Source of the DNA: Aurantiochytrium sp. KH105
Lineage: Eukaryota > Sar > Bigyra > Thraustochytrida > Thraustochytriidae
Assembly (NCBI GenBank): GCA_003116975.1
Contig: BGKB01000005.1
Location: 439,880 to 503,879, forward strand
Length of the DNA: 64,000 nucleotides
Direction: 5' to 3'
Made by a program: the position numbers and the translations under genes. Numbering within the stretch: position 1 is the stretch's first letter; each line of letters starts with the position of its first letter. The notes beneath the pieces are model-generated. The model was not told where the DNA came from. It did no database searches and saw nothing but the letters and a program-made list of their open reading frames with translations. This document shows, one piece after another, positions 23,648 to 43,830 of this stretch.

Positions 23648-23942
23648 GGGGCCGGCCAGGCCAGACCCTCCCCGCCTTCGAAGGCTGCCTCCGTTCACGA
23701 GGTTCAAGGATTGATCGATCGATCACAGCTAGCTACATAGAGCCAGAAACAAGTCAAGTATGGAGCTGGGATAAAGTAAAGTGAAGAGATCAAATCTACT
23801 TGTTTGGGGTGGGTATACTATCGAGCAAAAGTATATACAAAAAAAGGGGGGTGGGTGTGTGTTGTGGGCTAAAGTAAAGACACGGTATGACAGACTATGG
23901 ACCGACCAGCCGGGCGCGAACCCGGAGGCGAGAAAGTCTTTA
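23648..23942. other. Short spacer with the fusion gene's 3' end
   Basis: The 295 bp between the TMEM184 start and the stop of the AKR/cyclase gene. Nothing coding is seen. A GC inverted repeat (CCGGGCGCGAACCCGG) lies near 23911-23926, about 17 bp beyond the fusion-gene stop on the minus strand, and could fold in its transcript. Confidence 0.4.
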
Positions 23943-26432
23943 TTATGCCGAGACCTTGGTGGAGGCCTGCTTGTTGCGGCGCTCGATGTTGCGTTCGAAG
24001 GCGGTGCGCAGGGTCTCGTTGTCGATCATGAAGGCGTAGGTGCCGTTCTCCTCGTTGGCGGCCATCCAGCCGATCTTCTTGGCGAGACCCATGGTGGCCT
24101 TGCCGCCGACAAAGTGCTTGTCGTACTTGAGGGTGTCGAGGACCTGGTCAATGGTCATGGTGTCCGGGACGAAGCAGGGGAGGCCGGTGGCGCCGACGAT
24201 CTCGTAGTGCTCGTCGACGACAGAGTCCTCGCAGATGCCGAGAAGGTTGGCGACCTCGGCAGAGACGCACATGCCAATGGCGACGGCCTCGCCGTGGAGA
24301 AGAGGCTGGTTGCCATGGTGCCACGAGAGGTGCTCGATGGCGTGCGCGGGGGCATGGCCGTACTGCGGGACCATCTCGTTGTAGGCGTGGTCGGCGTTGT
24401 AGGCAGGTCCAAGGGTGGACACCTTCTTCTCCATGCACTCGATGATGAGCTTGAGCAGGTAGTCGCCGTCGCGAAGAGCCTCGCGCTTGTCCTCGCCGGC
24501 ATCGCGGAGCGGGTCAACGATGGTGGACGTAAAGTCCGTGCACTGGCAGAGGGCGTGCTTGAGGGCCTCGGCGATGCCGTTGAGGATGTGACGGTCGCTG
24601 AGAGACTTGAGGCAGTCCGGGTCCATGACAAGGTAGTCGGCAGGGTAGTAGCAGCCGAGGAGGTTCTTGCCAAAGTCCGAGACGTTGAAGGCCTTCTTGA
24701 AGTCGCACGAGGCGTCGCACATGCCCATGGTGGTTGTGGGGATGGTCACGAGGCGGATACCACGGTACAGGGTACCGGCGATGGTGCCGGTAATGTTGTC
24801 GACGGTGCCGCCACCGAGGGAGATGAGGCAGGTGTGCTTGGAGACACCGGTGGAGAGAATGTTGTCGACGATGCGGTGGTACTGCTGCTTGTTCTTGAAG
24901 GGCTCGGTGGAGGGCTCGCCAGAGTCGTCCATGGCAGCCGAGGGGATGACAATCTTCTCGATCTGAAGACCGCAGTCGCGGAAGCCCTGGAGCACCTTGT
25001 CACCATAGAGGTTGTCGACGATTTCGTCGGTGACGAGGTAGTTGGGGGCATCGTGGGAGACCTCAGGGATGATGGTCTTGCCAATGGTCTTGAGGTTGTC
25101 GAGAATGCCGCGCTGGATGACAATCTCGGTCTCAAGGTACTTGCCGGGGCGCTCGAACTTGTTGCGGAAGCATCCGTTGTCGTCGACCTCGCAAGGGGTG
25201 CGGAAGGCCTGGGTACCGGGATGTCCGCCGCGCACGCAGTACTCGGAGTCGGTGTCGAGATCAAACCAGGGCGGGCTGACGAAGCGGAAGCCGCGGTCGA
25301 GGGCATTGATGCGGTCCATCTGGGGCTTGGTGAGGCGCCAGTCGAGGACATCGCGGTTGGAGGCAATGCGGGACGGGGTCAGGCTCTTGGGGATGACCGA
25401 GGTGCCGCGCTGGATGCCCCAGCGGAGGAGGACCTGGCCGGGGGTCTTACCAACCTCGGCGGCGACCTCGACGATGGTCTCATCCTCGAGGAGCGAGGGG
25501 TGACCCTCGTCGCGGTAGCCGACCTTGCCGAGAGGCGAGTAGGCGATGACGTTGATGCCCTCCGTCTGGCAGAGCTCGACGAGGCTGGGCTGGGCGAGGT
25601 AAGGGTGCATCTCGACCTCGAGAACGAGGGGGCGGATCTCACAGCGGGCGAGGAGGCCCTGAAGGGTGCGGGGCCCCATGTTGGAGACACCGAGGGAGCG
25701 CACGAGGCCAAGCTCGACGAGGCGCTCCATGGCGTGGTAGGTCTCCATGATCTTTTCGATGTCGGTACCGTCATGGACGACCTCGTACTCGAACTTGCCG
25801 CCGAAGTCCTTGGAGACGAGCTTGCTGTCCTTGGACATGCGGTTGGGCCAGTGCATCATGTAGTTGTCAAGGTATTCGACCTGGAGATCGGCGAGGGTGC
25901 GGCGGCAGGCATCCTCGACGTCCTCGGGTGCTGCGTCCCAGCACCAAAGCTTGGAGCAGACAAAGAGGTCCTCGCGCTCGACGTCGCCGGCCTGGAGGCT
26001 GGACGAGAGTGCCTCGCCGACCTCCTTTTCGTTTCCATACAATGCGGCGCAGTCGATCATGCGGTATCCTTCCTTGATGGCGACCTGGACGGCCTCCTTG
26101 ACGCGCTCGCCGTCCTTGAACTCGTTGAAGGTGCCGAAGCCGAGGAGTGGGACGCTGGCGGCCGAGAGGGTGCCGGCGGAGCTTGCGCCCTGGGACTTGG
26201 CCTCGTCGTCGACGAGGTTGTTGGAGCTAGCGCTGGCGCCGATGCCCATGGTGGAGAGGGTGGCGGAGCTGTCGCCGGAGCTCATCTTGGTCTCGGACTC
26301 TTCGCTGCGGATGGATCCGGTGGACCACTTGCGGCGGTCGTTCTTCTTGGGGAGGGCATCGTCCTTCTTGTCGGCGCGGGGCTGCATCCAGGCCTCGCGC
26401 TCGGTCTGCTCGGTGCTATTCAAGATCGCCAT
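23943..26432 (-). CDS. Aldo-keto reductase / sugar-phosphate cyclase fusion (2-deoxy-scyllo-inosose-synthase-like C-terminal half)
   Basis: An 829-residue bifunctional protein from the ATG at 26430-26432. Residues 1-90 are a Ser/Ala-rich leader. The aldo-keto reductase domain spans about 93-385 with its tetrad intact: Asp127 and Tyr132 (MIDCAALYGNE), Lys161 (VCSKLW) and His194 (YMMHWP). It also has the NADPH-side VIPKS at 346-350. The second half, about 430-815, is a dehydroquinate-synthase-fold cyclase: SLGGGTVDN (538-546), RGIRLVTIPTT (557-567), Asp573, Lys580, Lys589-Asn590, metal ligands Glu622, His693 and His713, and LHGEAVAIGM. The RGIRLV..PTT.M and K.A.N..GKN.LG pattern is closer to 2-deoxy-scyllo-inosose synthase than to dehydroquinate or 2-epi-5-epi-valiolone synthases. 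The likely role is NAD-dependent cyclisation of a hexose 6-phosphate followed by ketone reduction. Codon choice is strongly C/G-ending, unlike neighbouring ATM. The substrate is not known. Confidence 0.85.
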   Translation of the reverse strand: MAILNSTEQTEREAWMQPRADKKDDALPKKNDRRKWSTGSIRSEESETKMSSGDSSATLSTMGIGASASSNNLVDDEAKSQGASSAGTLSAASVPLLGFGTFNEFKDGERVKEAVQVAIKEGYRMIDCAALYGNEKEVGEALSSSLQAGDVEREDLFVCSKLWCWDAAPEDVEDACRRTLADLQVEYLDNYMMHWPNRMSKDSKLVSKDFGGKFEYEVVHDGTDIEKIMETYHAMERLVELGLVRSLGVSNMGPRTLQGLLARCEIRPLVLEVEMHPYLAQPSLVELCQTEGINVIAYSPLGKVGYRDEGHPSLLEDETIVEVAAEVGKTPGQVLLRWGIQRGTSVIPKSLTPSRIASNRDVLDWRLTKPQMDRINALDRGFRFVSPPWFDLDTDSEYCVRGGHPGTQAFRTPCEVDDNGCFRNKFERPGKYLETEIVIQRGILDNLKTIGKTIIPEVSHDAPNYLVTDEIVDNLYGDKVLQGFRDCGLQIEKIVIPSAAMDDSGEPSTEPFKNKQQYHRIVDNILSTGVSKHTCLISLGGGTVDNITGTIAGTLYRGIRLVTIPTTTMGMCDASCDFKKAFNVSDFGKNLLGCYYPADYLVMDPDCLKSLSDRHILNGIAEALKHALCQCTDFTSTIVDPLRDAGEDKREALRDGDYLLKLIIECMEKKVSTLGPAYNADHAYNEMVPQYGHAPAHAIEHLSWHHGNQPLLHGEAVAIGMCVSAEVANLLGICEDSVVDEHYEIVGATGLPCFVPDTMTIDQVLDTLKYDKHFVGGKATMGLAKKIGWMAANEENGTYAFMIDNETLRTAFERNIERRNKQASTKVSA

Positions 26433-27770
26433 GGTTGTGCTGTGTGAAAAGCTGGTGATGTACAGAAGGTTGGACCTTGGGTGGGTGGCTTGTCTTGCTT
26501 GTTTTGAACTTGAGACTTGGTTGCGTGCGATGCGAAGCAAAAGCTTTGCGGTTGCTTGGGCTCGAGGTTGTTTGAGGGTTTGGAGCTCGAGTTTCGGGTT
26601 TGCTTGCGACCGATTTCCGGCGCGGCGCGAGCTCGCGGCGGCCGTGCAGTGGCGGTTGGGTCGGGCGGGCGGCTGTTTCTGGCCTTTTTGCGGCTTTGCA
26701 GCCGCTCTCGGTTCCTAGCAAGCGGCGGCGCCGGCGCTGGGAATCGCGTAGAACCGCGCTTGTTCCAGGAGAAGCCGCGGGAAAAAAGGCGCGACGGGAG
26801 GAAAAAGAAAAGAATGCGCAAAGAAAAGGTAACTAACCGGAAACAAAAAGAAAAGAAAGAAGAAAAAATGGAATTGGAGGAAGGCCGGAACCGAAAAAGA
26901 AAAAAAGGAAACAGGCACAGGAAGATTGCGCGCATGACGCGCTGCGGGGACGCCGACGCGCTGCGGGGGAGAGCCTCCGGCGCCTCACGCAGGCGCGCCG
27001 GCACCGCCAGTCGGTTTTCGCGGAATGCTCTACTTGCGCCGGGCCGATCTTGACTCTCAGACCCGCGCCGCGACGCGCCAGAGGGGCGCGGGAGGGTGGC
27101 TGCGGAGGTCCTGCTCCGGCTGCGGTACCGCGCCCTGCTTGACGCCCAGGCGGACGGCCCCCGGGCGGGCTACTCGGGGCGCACTACAGTTGACTCACTG
27201 TGGGGGAGGGGAGAGGGGGAGACGGCGCTAGCGGCGGTAGGTGGAGAAAGCAGAGAGGGGGGGGGGAGGTGGGCCGTGGCTAAGAGTCTTTGAAGAGTCC
27301 TAACGATGCACCTAGCGAGACTCACCGCTTGCTCTCGCTCCGTTCCTCCCGGCACGGCCTCGCTCCTGCCAGCTGCTCTCTCTCTTGCTCTTCCCCGAAC
27401 TTTCGCCCGTCCGCTTCTCGACGCAACCCCGGTTGGCGGTCTCAGATCGAAGAAGAAGAAGAAGAAGTCCTAGCTGCTTTCGTCTACCCGCCATGGATCG
27501 TACTTTCGTGCACGCACTGCAATTTTCGAGTTCTTTGCTCAACTTTTTTCTCCTTTCTTTCGACCAAGGGAGCGGATTTTCGAGAGCAAGCGATCCACGC
27601 AGCCAGGTCGCTAGAGTTTAACTGCACATTTTCGCCCTACCGCACGCGAGGCAACGATCGCGCGCCCGAGGAGGCTGCATTTTTCGGCAAAGTCGGCGGC
27701 GGTTGCCGACGCCGGAGCGTCGCGTGGCGTGGCGTGGCGTCTCGTGTCAAGTTTGGCGAGAAGCGGACAA

Positions 27771-41494: not shown

Positions 41495-43030
41495 TTACAA
41501 GCGCGATTCTTCGGGAAAGCCCTTGAGAGAGGCGCGCACGGCCTGCGTGGCCAAGACCGACGAAGCGCCGCCCAGCACAGCGCCGTACTGGTACGTGCGC
41601 TGAAAGTTCTCGAGCTTGGATCCGAGACCCGTTTGTGTAAGCGCACGTCCACCAAAGATCTGGATCGCGCCGTCGTTCACCACACGCGAAGCCTCAACTT
41701 GTTGATTCTTCAAAAGGGAGATCGCACCAGAAAGCTTCGTGGTCTGCTCGGCATACGACATGTTGCACATCTTGTACGTGACATTGTCAATAAGCGCCGA
41801 AACCGAGTCCACATACGCGCACATGGTCGCGAGACGCTCCTGGATTTGAGGCTGATGAATGAGACGCTTGCCGAAGACCTTGCGGTTGTACGCCCACTTG
41901 TAGCACTCCTCAATGATGAGACGGTTCTGGCGGTTGCCACCGACGGCCATGCCCCAGCGCTCGTGGTTAAAGTTGGCCATCGCCAACAAAAAGCCACCGC
42001 CTTCCTTGCCCAAAAGGTTGCTGGCAGGCACCTTGACGTTCTCAAAGGTAATGAGCGAGGTTCCGGCAACGGAGCTGTACGAGGTCTTGATGCGCTTCGT
42101 CGTCACGCCTTCGGTGCGCTCAATGAGTAGAAGCGAGAGACCACCATGGCCCTTGCCGCCCGTGCGCACCAACGCCGTAAAGTAGTCTGCGTCGTAACCA
42201 CCCGTGATCCACTTCTTGAGGCCATTCACGACGTAGTGGCTGCCATCTGCCGAAAGCTTGGCCTCAGCGGTGGAGTTGGCCACATCGCTACCGGCGTAAG
42301 GGTCCGTGATGGCCAGGCAGATGCGCTTTTCACCGCGCAGGATAGCGGGTGCAACGCGCTGCACGAGCTCTGGGGAGCCAAAGTTCAAGACGGGCGGAAG
42401 GCCAATCACACAGCCTCCTCCAAGACCATCGACCAAGGCCCAGCTTCCGCATCGCTTCAGCTCTTCACCAACGACACGCTCGACAGAGTAGTCATAATCC
42501 TCCGGCTTGATGCCGCCCGGGAGCTTGTCGACCATCTTGAGGTGCGGGCCAGGACCCATCGATGCCGCAATGTAGCCAAAGTCGCCCATCTTCTTGATGA
42601 TTTCCTTGGGGAACTCGCCGGCCGCCTCCCATTCACTGACAAAGGGGATAATCTCGCGTTCAACGAACTCGCGGCACGCGCGACGCACGTTATGGTGTTT
42701 CTCCGTCTCGAAGGGCGAGATCCACTCGGCGTAAGGGACCGGGCTCAAGGCTCCGAGATCACGCGGCGGCGGGACCGTCTTGCCCTTGACCGTGCCAATC
42801 ATCAGCTTCTCCTTGTACTGTTCCAGGACACTCAGCCTGTGGAGGCTGTAGAACTCCTCGGTGCAGTCAGTGCCGGCCACCTTGACGAGCAGGTGCTTCG
42901 ATCCGGGGTGAAAGTTCATGAACATGCTCACGTCCAGAACCAAGCCGTCGATCACAAGCCAGGCGTCGCCCTCGGCATTGTGCTTTTCGACCTCGGCCAT
43001 CTCAATCTCGCGCATCTCCTTCTTGCCCAT
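41495..43030 (-). CDS. Cytochrome b5 / acyl-CoA dehydrogenase fusion, copy 2, with C-terminal SRL
   Basis: A 511-residue protein from the ATG at 43028-43030, the start that aligns with copy 1; the open frame extends further but without homology. It has the same architecture: b5-like domain with FHPGS and YSLHR histidines, flavin motif ITDPYAGSDV, catalytic-type Glu in NHERW and terminal EESRL (PTS1). By eye it differs from copy 1 at about 45 residues. The first 110 residues differ at only one (Leu for Met30), whereas the dehydrogenase core carries clusters of change such as GEFPKEIIKKM against GEYPFEVFQKM and YDADYFTA against YPADYFTT. Substitutions around the substrate side suggest the two may prefer different acyl chains; this is inference. 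Confidence 0.92.
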   Translation of the reverse strand: MGKKEMREIEMAEVEKHNAEGDAWLVIDGLVLDVSMFMNFHPGSKHLLVKVAGTDCTEEFYSLHRLSVLEQYKEKLMIGTVKGKTVPPPRDLGALSPVPYAEWISPFETEKHHNVRRACREFVEREIIPFVSEWEAAGEFPKEIIKKMGDFGYIAASMGPGPHLKMVDKLPGGIKPEDYDYSVERVVGEELKRCGSWALVDGLGGGCVIGLPPVLNFGSPELVQRVAPAILRGEKRICLAITDPYAGSDVANSTAEAKLSADGSHYVVNGLKKWITGGYDADYFTALVRTGGKGHGGLSLLLIERTEGVTTKRIKTSYSSVAGTSLITFENVKVPASNLLGKEGGGFLLAMANFNHERWGMAVGGNRQNRLIIEECYKWAYNRKVFGKRLIHQPQIQERLATMCAYVDSVSALIDNVTYKMCNMSYAEQTTKLSGAISLLKNQQVEASRVVNDGAIQIFGGRALTQTGLGSKLENFQRTYQYGAVLGGASSVLATQAVRASLKGFPEESRL

Positions 43031-43830
43031 CTTGCTCGTTTGCGTCCCTGCCTGACTGTCCTCGCGAATGCGTCTACCTCTGCGTCTCCTGCGACGGCGC
43101 TGGCGAGAAGACGATGACGCGGTTGACGATAGAGTTCTGCTCCGTCGCGCGCTCGGCCTGGCCGCGCCAAAGACCAGGCGCCGAGCCCTAAGGCCAGGTT
43201 TAGGCGAAACGCTACGGTAAGGCGGGGCGGGCCTGGCGTAATGTGCAATGTAACCCCGCCCAACCCAACCCAACCCGACCCATGCGCTGCTTGCTGCTGC
43301 TAATGCTAATGCTAATCCGCGGGCAAAGAAGACGGAAGGCGGCCATGGCCACGTCGTTGTGAGCGGAACAAGGCTGGCTGGCCTGCGACCGCGACGCGCG
43401 TCCAGAAGCCTAGTTTCGTGCGACGGAATCCATCGTTGCTAGGGAGATATGATTCCGATCTAGAGTAAACGAGGATATTCTGAAGCAGAGGAGGGCAGAG
43501 AGGATAAAATGGATCGGCGAGGATATGCTGCGCTGCGAATGGACAAAGGGCGCGGGGGCGGCGGGCGCAAGTGCAGGCGAAGCGGGCGCAAGTGGGGTGT
43601 GCCGGTGTGCAAGTGGACTATCGCGGGCGCAAGTGGAAAGTTTTGCTGTCGGCGGACCTCGACGCGCTGCAGGCGCTCAGCGTTGATCTAAACGCGGATA
43701 TCGCGGAGAGGATCGGCGGGCGAGGCGCGAGGGCGCGCAGGCGGAGAGCAGCGGCGACAGCAGCAGCATCAGCAGCAGCAGAAGCAGCAGCAGAAGCAGC
43801 GCGAGCGCGAAGCCCGGGAGCCCACGCACG
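43031..43830. other. Divergent promoter region of b5/ACAD copy 2 and the RPEL gene
   Basis: An 800-bp spacer with CCCAAC repeats near 43257-43280 and GCTAAT repeats near 43300-43316. A plus-strand frame at 43580-43730 translates to a protein-like stretch (DYRGRKWKVLLSADLDAL), but it is out of frame with the RPEL start and has no recognised homologue. It may be leader or chance. Confidence 0.45.

Follow-up and report, generated by a model that had tools for sequence, protein, structure and literature searches.

What would a single protein do that joins an aldo-keto reductase (AKR) to a cyclase of the dehydroquinate synthase (DHQS) fold family? This question is raised by a gene in a 64,000-nucleotide stretch of contig BGKB01000005.1 of the thraustochytrid Aurantiochytrium sp. 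KH105 (this whole stretch is hereafter called the window), which an earlier note on the same DNA had proposed to encode a one-protein quercitol synthase. We regard it as probable, with moderate confidence, that the protein is a bifunctional cyclitol synthase that would convert a hexose phosphate via a deoxy-inosose into a quercitol-type cyclitol, and its cyclase is best explained, from trees and residue comparisons, as belonging to an undescribed clade of sugar-phosphate cyclases beside 2-deoxy-scyllo-inosose synthase (DOIS).

The gene is a single uninterrupted open reading frame (ORF) on the minus strand, with its ATG at 26432, its stop codon at 23945-23943 and 829 encoded residues. Its coordinates had been given correctly before, as those of a real and intact ORF, but with no strand, and the proposed architecture of an AKR and a cyclase in one chain is borne out by the Pfam matches and the intact frame. 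Its parts are as follows.

23943 to 26432, minus strand: whole gene, AKR-cyclase fusion of 829 residues plus stop in one open frame (from the ORF, Pfam and the genome copies).
26163 to 26432, minus strand: Ser/Lys-rich N-terminus, residues 1-90, fast evolving (from paralog dN/dS).
25296 to 26141, minus strand: AKR domain, Pfam match 98-379, with the tetrad D127, Y132, K161 and H194 (from Pfam and residue mapping).
25146 to 25247, minus strand: linker, residues 396-429 (from sequence and copy comparison).
23946 to 25145, minus strand: cyclase domain, residues 430-829 (from Pfam, PDB match and tree).
24585 to 24911, minus strand: PF01761 part of the cyclase, residues 508-616, with GGG at 540-542, N546, D573, K579 and K589-N590, and the private residues T543, D545, T563, S575 and K580 (from Pfam and alignment).
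24114 to 24578, minus strand: PF24621 part of the cyclase, residues 619-773, with the metal ligands E622, H693 and H713, the clade signature E686 and Q690, H697 and K772 (from Pfam and alignment).

The Pfam E-values were 3.6e-49 for Aldo_ket_red (98-379), 7.3e-25 for DHQ_synthase (508-616) and 2.5e-18 for DHQS_C (619-773). The first domain is an AKR by its Asp-Tyr-Lys-His tetrad, all four residues of which were found by residue mapping where they had been claimed, and by a Pfam score of 167.8 bits against a cut-off of 24; it also has K349, S350, T352, R355 and N359, positions that we take to be the NADPH 2'-phosphate site of AKR1B. The second belongs to the sugar-phosphate cyclase superfamily by its DHQ_synthase Pfam domains and Glu/His/His metal ligands, and it keeps E622, H693, H713, D573, K579, K589, N590, K625, K670, H697 and K772. 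The cyclase residues named previously (GGG 540-542, Asp573, Lys589-Asn590, Glu622, His693 and His713) therefore stand, except that the catalytic lysine is not Lys580 but Lys579, the equivalent of DHQS catalytic Lys152, whereas Lys580, the next residue, replaces a near-invariant Gln in the alignment.

Four stop-free copies of the gene were found in the 76 Mb assembly, namely the alleles C5/C21 (99%) and a paralog pair C20/C192 (88-89%). The ratio of nonsynonymous to synonymous substitution rates (dN/dS) was 0.07 between alleles and, between paralogs, 0.29 for the AKR, 0.16 for the cyclase and 1.2 for the N-terminal 90 residues (69 aligned codons), and the copies differed at 76, 56 and 154 sites in codon positions 1, 2 and 3, respectively. 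The stop-free copies, the dN/dS values and the codon-position pattern together indicate that the ORF is not due to chance, and the gene is under purifying selection. An antisense ORF of 888 aa (23781-26447, plus strand) spans the whole gene, and comparable long antisense open frames are present in the other three copies; this is probably a composition effect, which could mislead gene callers. The minus strand is favoured by homology, by the codon pattern and by the conserved start, MAI..., shared by all four copies and by the database protein P0003. The genome also encodes a separate ordinary DHQS with the usual Arg and Asn (two alleles, C212/C286), and the shikimate pathway therefore does not depend on the fusion.

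To place the cyclase, a careful tree of 51 rows was built, comprising 27 clade, 5 DOIS, 15 DHQS-type and 4 sedoheptulose 7-phosphate (S7P)-type rows, with EVS, aminoDHQS and EboD references absent; two of the DOIS were obtained additionally from plasmids, and these were excluded from the residue counts below. The clade was joined with DOIS at 100/99, and the supports were 99/93 for the clade alone, which includes the myxobacterial locus L019, and 100/100 for DOIS alone; a quick tree of 64 rows agreed, with a support of 97 for clade plus DOIS. Compared with the references, the window cyclase did not group with DHQS, which agrees with the earlier note, and its clade joined DOIS, though approximately unbiased (AU) tests gave p values of 0.112-0.114 for the alternatives. 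The assignment to the inosose-synthase branch is supported in so far as it places the protein near DOIS rather than near DHQS or the S7P cyclases, by both tree and residues, but the window cyclase falls outside the five-row DOIS group, in a sister clade and not as a member.

More telling than the trees were the signature residues, which were counted in 187 database rows, which included 158 grouped clade proteins, 17 ungrouped ones and 12 of DHQS type (P0111-P0122), although one of the latter, P0112, behaves like DOIS in the quick tree. The position of Arg264 of AnDHQS, which we take to be the carboxylate-binding residue, is Glu in all 158 grouped clade proteins (E686 here) and Arg in the organism's own DHQS and in 3/3 solved DHQS. 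The Asn268 position is Gln in the same 158 of 158 and in L019 (Q690 here), and is N in DHQS, E in DOIS, D in EEVS and A in DDGS; among the 17 ungrouped rows it is Gln in 14, Leu in P0109 and a gap in P0043 and P0079. In P0109 the cyclase is joined to a sugar-binding domain of periplasmic type (PF13407). At the H275 and K250 positions the clade has His697 and Lys670, where EEVS and DDGS have Pro and Met, and N546 is common to the three aligned DOIS rows and is Asp in DHQS, EEVS and DDGS. The curated aroB model scored 186 bits against a cut-off of 305, a threshold that annotated DOIS also miss, and all members tried against NCBIfam scored below the family cut-offs. Judged by these residues, the cyclase is neither DHQS, nor EEVS/DDGS, nor DOIS proper.

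Five further positions set the thraustochytrid proteins apart. T543, D545, T563, S575 and K580 occur together only in the window protein, its paralog and P0003, whereas four of these sites read V, N, H and Q in the remaining 40 of 41 fused proteins, and the fifth is A in 39/41; the three other clade groups match V/N/H/Q/A except for four Ser at 575, and the ungrouped rows contain one C and one I at 543. Since these changes lie at near-invariant positions, the specificity of the thraustochytrid cyclase may differ from that of its relatives, and the intact catalytic set makes altered specificity likelier than decay.

Compared with characterised systems, the cyclase most resembles DOIS (BtrC, PDB 2d2x/2gru), with which it shares the fold family, metal ligands, catalytic residues, N546, H697, Y691, the lack of a carboxylate Arg and the sister position in the tree. 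It differs from the three aligned DOIS rows in having Gln690 instead of Glu, Glu686 instead of Gly/Ala, K772 instead of Arg and T563 and K580 instead of H and Q, as well as in its fused AKR, and the DOIS loci L016, L140 and L141 carry an aminotransferase, while none was present among the window ORFs scanned. With DHQS (AroB; 6lk2, 3zok and 1dqs) it shares the fold family and E622, H693, H713, D573, K579, K670 and H697, but has Glu at the Arg264, Gln at the Asn268 and Asn at the Asp119 positions, and lies below the aroB cut-off. EEVS ValA (4p53) and DDGS (5tpr) have the superfamily fold and the metal ligands in common with it but lie beyond a 100/100 branch and carry Pro and Met in place of His697 and Lys670. 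The reductase matches the aldehyde reductase AKR1A (2alr, 267 bits) in its full tetrad and NADPH-site residues but, unlike it, is fused to a cyclase.

The fusion is not unique. Among 5.8 billion proteins searched there were 265 matches, of which the best 120 were listed, and among the matches listed at least 41 proteins combine an AKR with the cyclase (Pfam column and local alignments); the nearest is P0003 (83%), and one is named, that of the diatom Nitzschia inconspicua (P0010). P0079 (505 aa), with an AKR and part of a cyclase, was excluded from the 41. The AKR precedes the cyclase in all 41, and in 26 of them a stricter pair of motifs also shows this order. Their tetrads were full in 28, N-truncated in 5 and substituted in 8. 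P0039, P0041, P0044 and P0045 keep both cyclase Pfam domains although their tetrad has been altered or lost, which suggests a reductase in decay or put to another use. The 38 full or near full-length fused AKR domains cluster with a support of 98, in a quick tree with three outside AKRs and long-branch warnings, which is consistent with one single fusion event. The family is a new clade within a superfamily already known, and its fusion is new.

Cyclases without a listed AKR were found in Entomoneis, Ochromonadaceae, Prymnesium, Pavlovales, Chrysophaeum, Porphyridium, Monosiga, Salpingoeca and bacteria. The 72 proteins counted as standalone cyclases are mostly unnamed and were taken as eukaryotic, and the 30 counted as NTP-fused include P0101, whose listing has no such domain. 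Two relatives stood out on their own account: P0042 (935 aa) has two stretches matched by PF01761 and is a possible tandem cyclase, and P0144, from a metagenome-assembled genome (MAG) labelled Planctomycetota and perhaps mis-binned, groups with the eukaryotic-type fused proteins in the quick tree. Among viral relatives, 73 pattern matches yielded 0 confirmed. A scan of genome contigs gave at least 80 loci, 12 of which (of 80) were checked, L019 being a clade member and 11 DHQS-like by motif. In 369 genomes from the class that includes Yersinia pekkanenii there were no standalone relatives of Burkholderia type (E <= 1e-58), and 396 genomes from the phylum of L041 gave no additional DOIS (E <= 1e-64); both searches show little, as they had no positive control.

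A bacterial parallel to the fusion came from the phylum of a Myxococcales MAG, in which 26 of 282 genomes matched at E <= 1e-60 and 16 of the 26 were inspected; L137 and L138 turned out by motif to be ordinary DHQS and do not enter the operon count. The following arrangement recurred.

L019, 7209 to 10656, also L124-L136: compact cassette of nucleotidyltransferase/cyclase, short-chain dehydrogenase/reductase (SDR) and PfkB kinase.

In all 14 clade-type loci, each with the Gln signature, the SDR lies next to the cyclase in the same orientation; fusion of the cyclase to the nucleotidyltransferase was seen in 13/14 and a PfkB kinase lies close by in 11/14. The genes outside the cassette, 10 of which were scanned, varied. 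The database protein P0082 is a triple fusion of NTP-transferase, cyclase and SDR. The nucleotidyltransferase domain of L019 scored 95.6 bits against an inositol-1-phosphate cytidylyltransferase model with a cut-off of 580. By its gene content the cassette looks like a route to an activated cyclitol, and its product is probably activated rather than stored, given the kinase and nucleotidyltransferase. Its cyclase is of the same larger clade (99/93) as the thraustochytrid one and is likewise coupled to a reductase, but an SDR takes the place of the AKR and the kinase and nucleotidyltransferase are added. Cyclase-reductase coupling therefore recurs, and because the reductase that accompanies this cyclase type in bacteria, fused or adjacent, is a different and unrelated one, the AKR is read as the reductase of the cyclase ketone, in support of the logic previously proposed.

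In the bifunctional synthase that we favour, the cyclase would begin by oxidising a hexose 6-phosphate at C4, with the help of a metal ion and of NAD+ that it binds tightly; the phosphate would be eliminated, C4 re-reduced and the ring opened, and aldol closure would yield a deoxy-inosose, a cyclic ketone, which the N-terminal AKR would reduce with NADPH to a deoxy-inositol (quercitol). By the title of a 2007 paper by Jakobsen, (-)-proto-quercitol is reportedly a principal compatible solute of thraustochytrids, and the product in this organism may plausibly be that osmolyte. Which substrates could give it was enumerated for the eight aldohexoses, with C2-C4 of the D-hexose 6-phosphate retained and both aldol and both reduction faces allowed. 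Glucose 6-phosphate led only to scyllo-, 1L-/1D-vibo- or neo-quercitol; 1L-proto, which we take to be the (-) form, arose only from galactose or gulose, and 1D-proto only from mannose or altrose. The earlier note had called for a different hexose phosphate or a different aldol face, of which the first is indeed needed, while the second alone cannot yield proto, since C2-C4 of the sugar must be galacto/gulo or manno/altro. For galactose with the DOIS aldol face, proto would need only C5 reduction trans to the C4-OH.

Several points weigh against this synthase or its proposed product. Proto-quercitol is not directly reachable from glucose 6-phosphate, and galactose 6-phosphate is not a common metabolite. 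Three trees in which DOIS is not the sister group all stay unrejected by the AU tests (p 0.112, 0.112 and 0.114; log-likelihood 15.4 lower). The Arg264 position is Ala in L019, which means that Glu does not mark the clade as a whole, and Arg in ValA, a column that is unsure for EEVS owing to an insertion nearby in the alignment. The five private substitutions break clade-wide positions, H563 and Q580 being common also to DOIS. The altered tetrad in 8 of the 41 fused relatives suggests that the reductase is dispensable in some lineages. No cyclitol cluster was found among the 13 further window ORFs scanned, and no match listed was named Hondaea, though Hondaea is in the database, for which gene absence or missing annotation are both possible.

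Of the alternatives, the one that survives best, though we consider it unlikely, is that glucose 6-phosphate is turned by the cyclase into 2-deoxy-scyllo-inosose, which the AKR reduces to scyllo- or vibo-quercitol, any proto-quercitol coming by another route, e.g. from inositol. DOIS is the nearest characterised relative in the tree, and glucose 6-phosphate gives no proto isomer by such chemistry; against this, the thraustochytrid branch has changed H563 and Q580, which the three aligned DOIS rows share with all other clade rows that have a letter there, and the thraustochytrid cyclitol is reported as proto, albeit as known from paper titles only. It is improbable that the protein is a C7 cyclase acting on sedoheptulose 7-phosphate for a gadusol- or mycosporine-like sunscreen or another C7 cyclitol, with the AKR reducing a valiolone-type ketone. 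Sedoheptulose 7-phosphate is a common metabolite, and an AU test leaves the clade joined with S7P cyclases unrejected (p 0.112); EEVS-type enzymes are, according to excerpts of two papers, present in algae (PMC4426668, PMC7826186). Yet the four S7P-type rows lie beyond the 100/100 branch, their Pro and Met are His697 and Lys670 here, and the 13 window ORFs scanned include no MT-Ox and, as sole ATP-grasp-type match, a tubulin-tyrosine ligase. We hold it quite improbable that the two domains are functionally unrelated, e.g. a detoxifying aldehyde or aldose reductase fused to a cyclase: the closest solved AKR relatives are aldehyde reductases, which are promiscuous, and the tetrad is altered in those 8 relatives, but the order is constant in 41/41 fused proteins, the 38 fused AKRs cluster as described with the limits of that quick tree, and in 14/14 bacterial loci this cyclase type is coupled to an unrelated reductase. 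A shikimate-pathway DHQS with an unrelated AKR attached is very improbable, for although a DHQS is the top PDB match by sequence, several relatives are named 3-dehydroquinate synthase in databases and other tree arrangements stay unrejected by the AU tests, the aroB score is too low (as for annotated DOIS), Glu/Gln replace Arg264/Asn268 in every grouped clade protein and a DHQS with the usual pair is encoded elsewhere.

Around the gene, 10 of the 13 ORFs match ordinary eukaryotic families and 3 match none, and a neighbouring TMEM184C-like protein is 96% identical to that of Hondaea fermentalgiana, which by this one neighbour points to a thraustochytrid host close to Hondaea. Elsewhere in the window, at 41495-43273 on the minus strand, an acyl-CoA dehydrogenase that has all three of its domains carries a fused cytochrome b5 domain. 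A second AKR of the same genome, 40% identical, lies inside open frames of 759 aa (L005, on C44) and 719 aa (L006, on C122), and the stretch preceding it in L005, judged by eye, resembles a TauD-type dioxygenase.

In the literature covered (titles and abstract starts, subscription journals lying mostly outside), no AKR-cyclase architecture or quercitol synthase was described and nothing combined quercitol with 2-deoxy-scyllo-inosose; an excerpt of a 2021 review states that the plant quercitol route is not elucidated (PMC8919412). Excerpts of two other papers give 1,4/2,5-cyclohexanetetrol as a diatom osmolyte (PMC5334607) and as putatively identified, in the D form, in the haptophyte Isochrysis (PMC7998644). 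By our enumeration, only the two proto isomers among the 16 quercitols give the 1,4/2,5 pattern on losing OH-3. We tentatively suggest, while doubting it more than we believe it, that one cyclase clade, often AKR-fused, is the common source of marine protist cyclitol osmolytes, supplying thraustochytrids with proto-quercitol and diatoms and haptophytes with 1,4/2,5-cyclohexanetetrol, and that the thraustochytrid pocket was re-tuned (T563, K580, D545) towards a substrate of galacto configuration, or else towards an equivalent epimerisation. The enantiomers may not match, as the Isochrysis form is D and that derived from 1L-proto is L, which speaks against a simple common route.

The gene offers a concrete single-protein candidate for proto-quercitol synthesis, and thraustochytrids can be cultured. 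The residue signature could serve to re-name relatives now called 3-dehydroquinate synthase, and the bacterial cassette offers a parallel to the fusion. If this reading is right, an unsettled biosynthetic question would become testable by one assay, and the cyclitol osmolytes of diatoms, haptophytes and thraustochytrids would be tied to one enzyme family.

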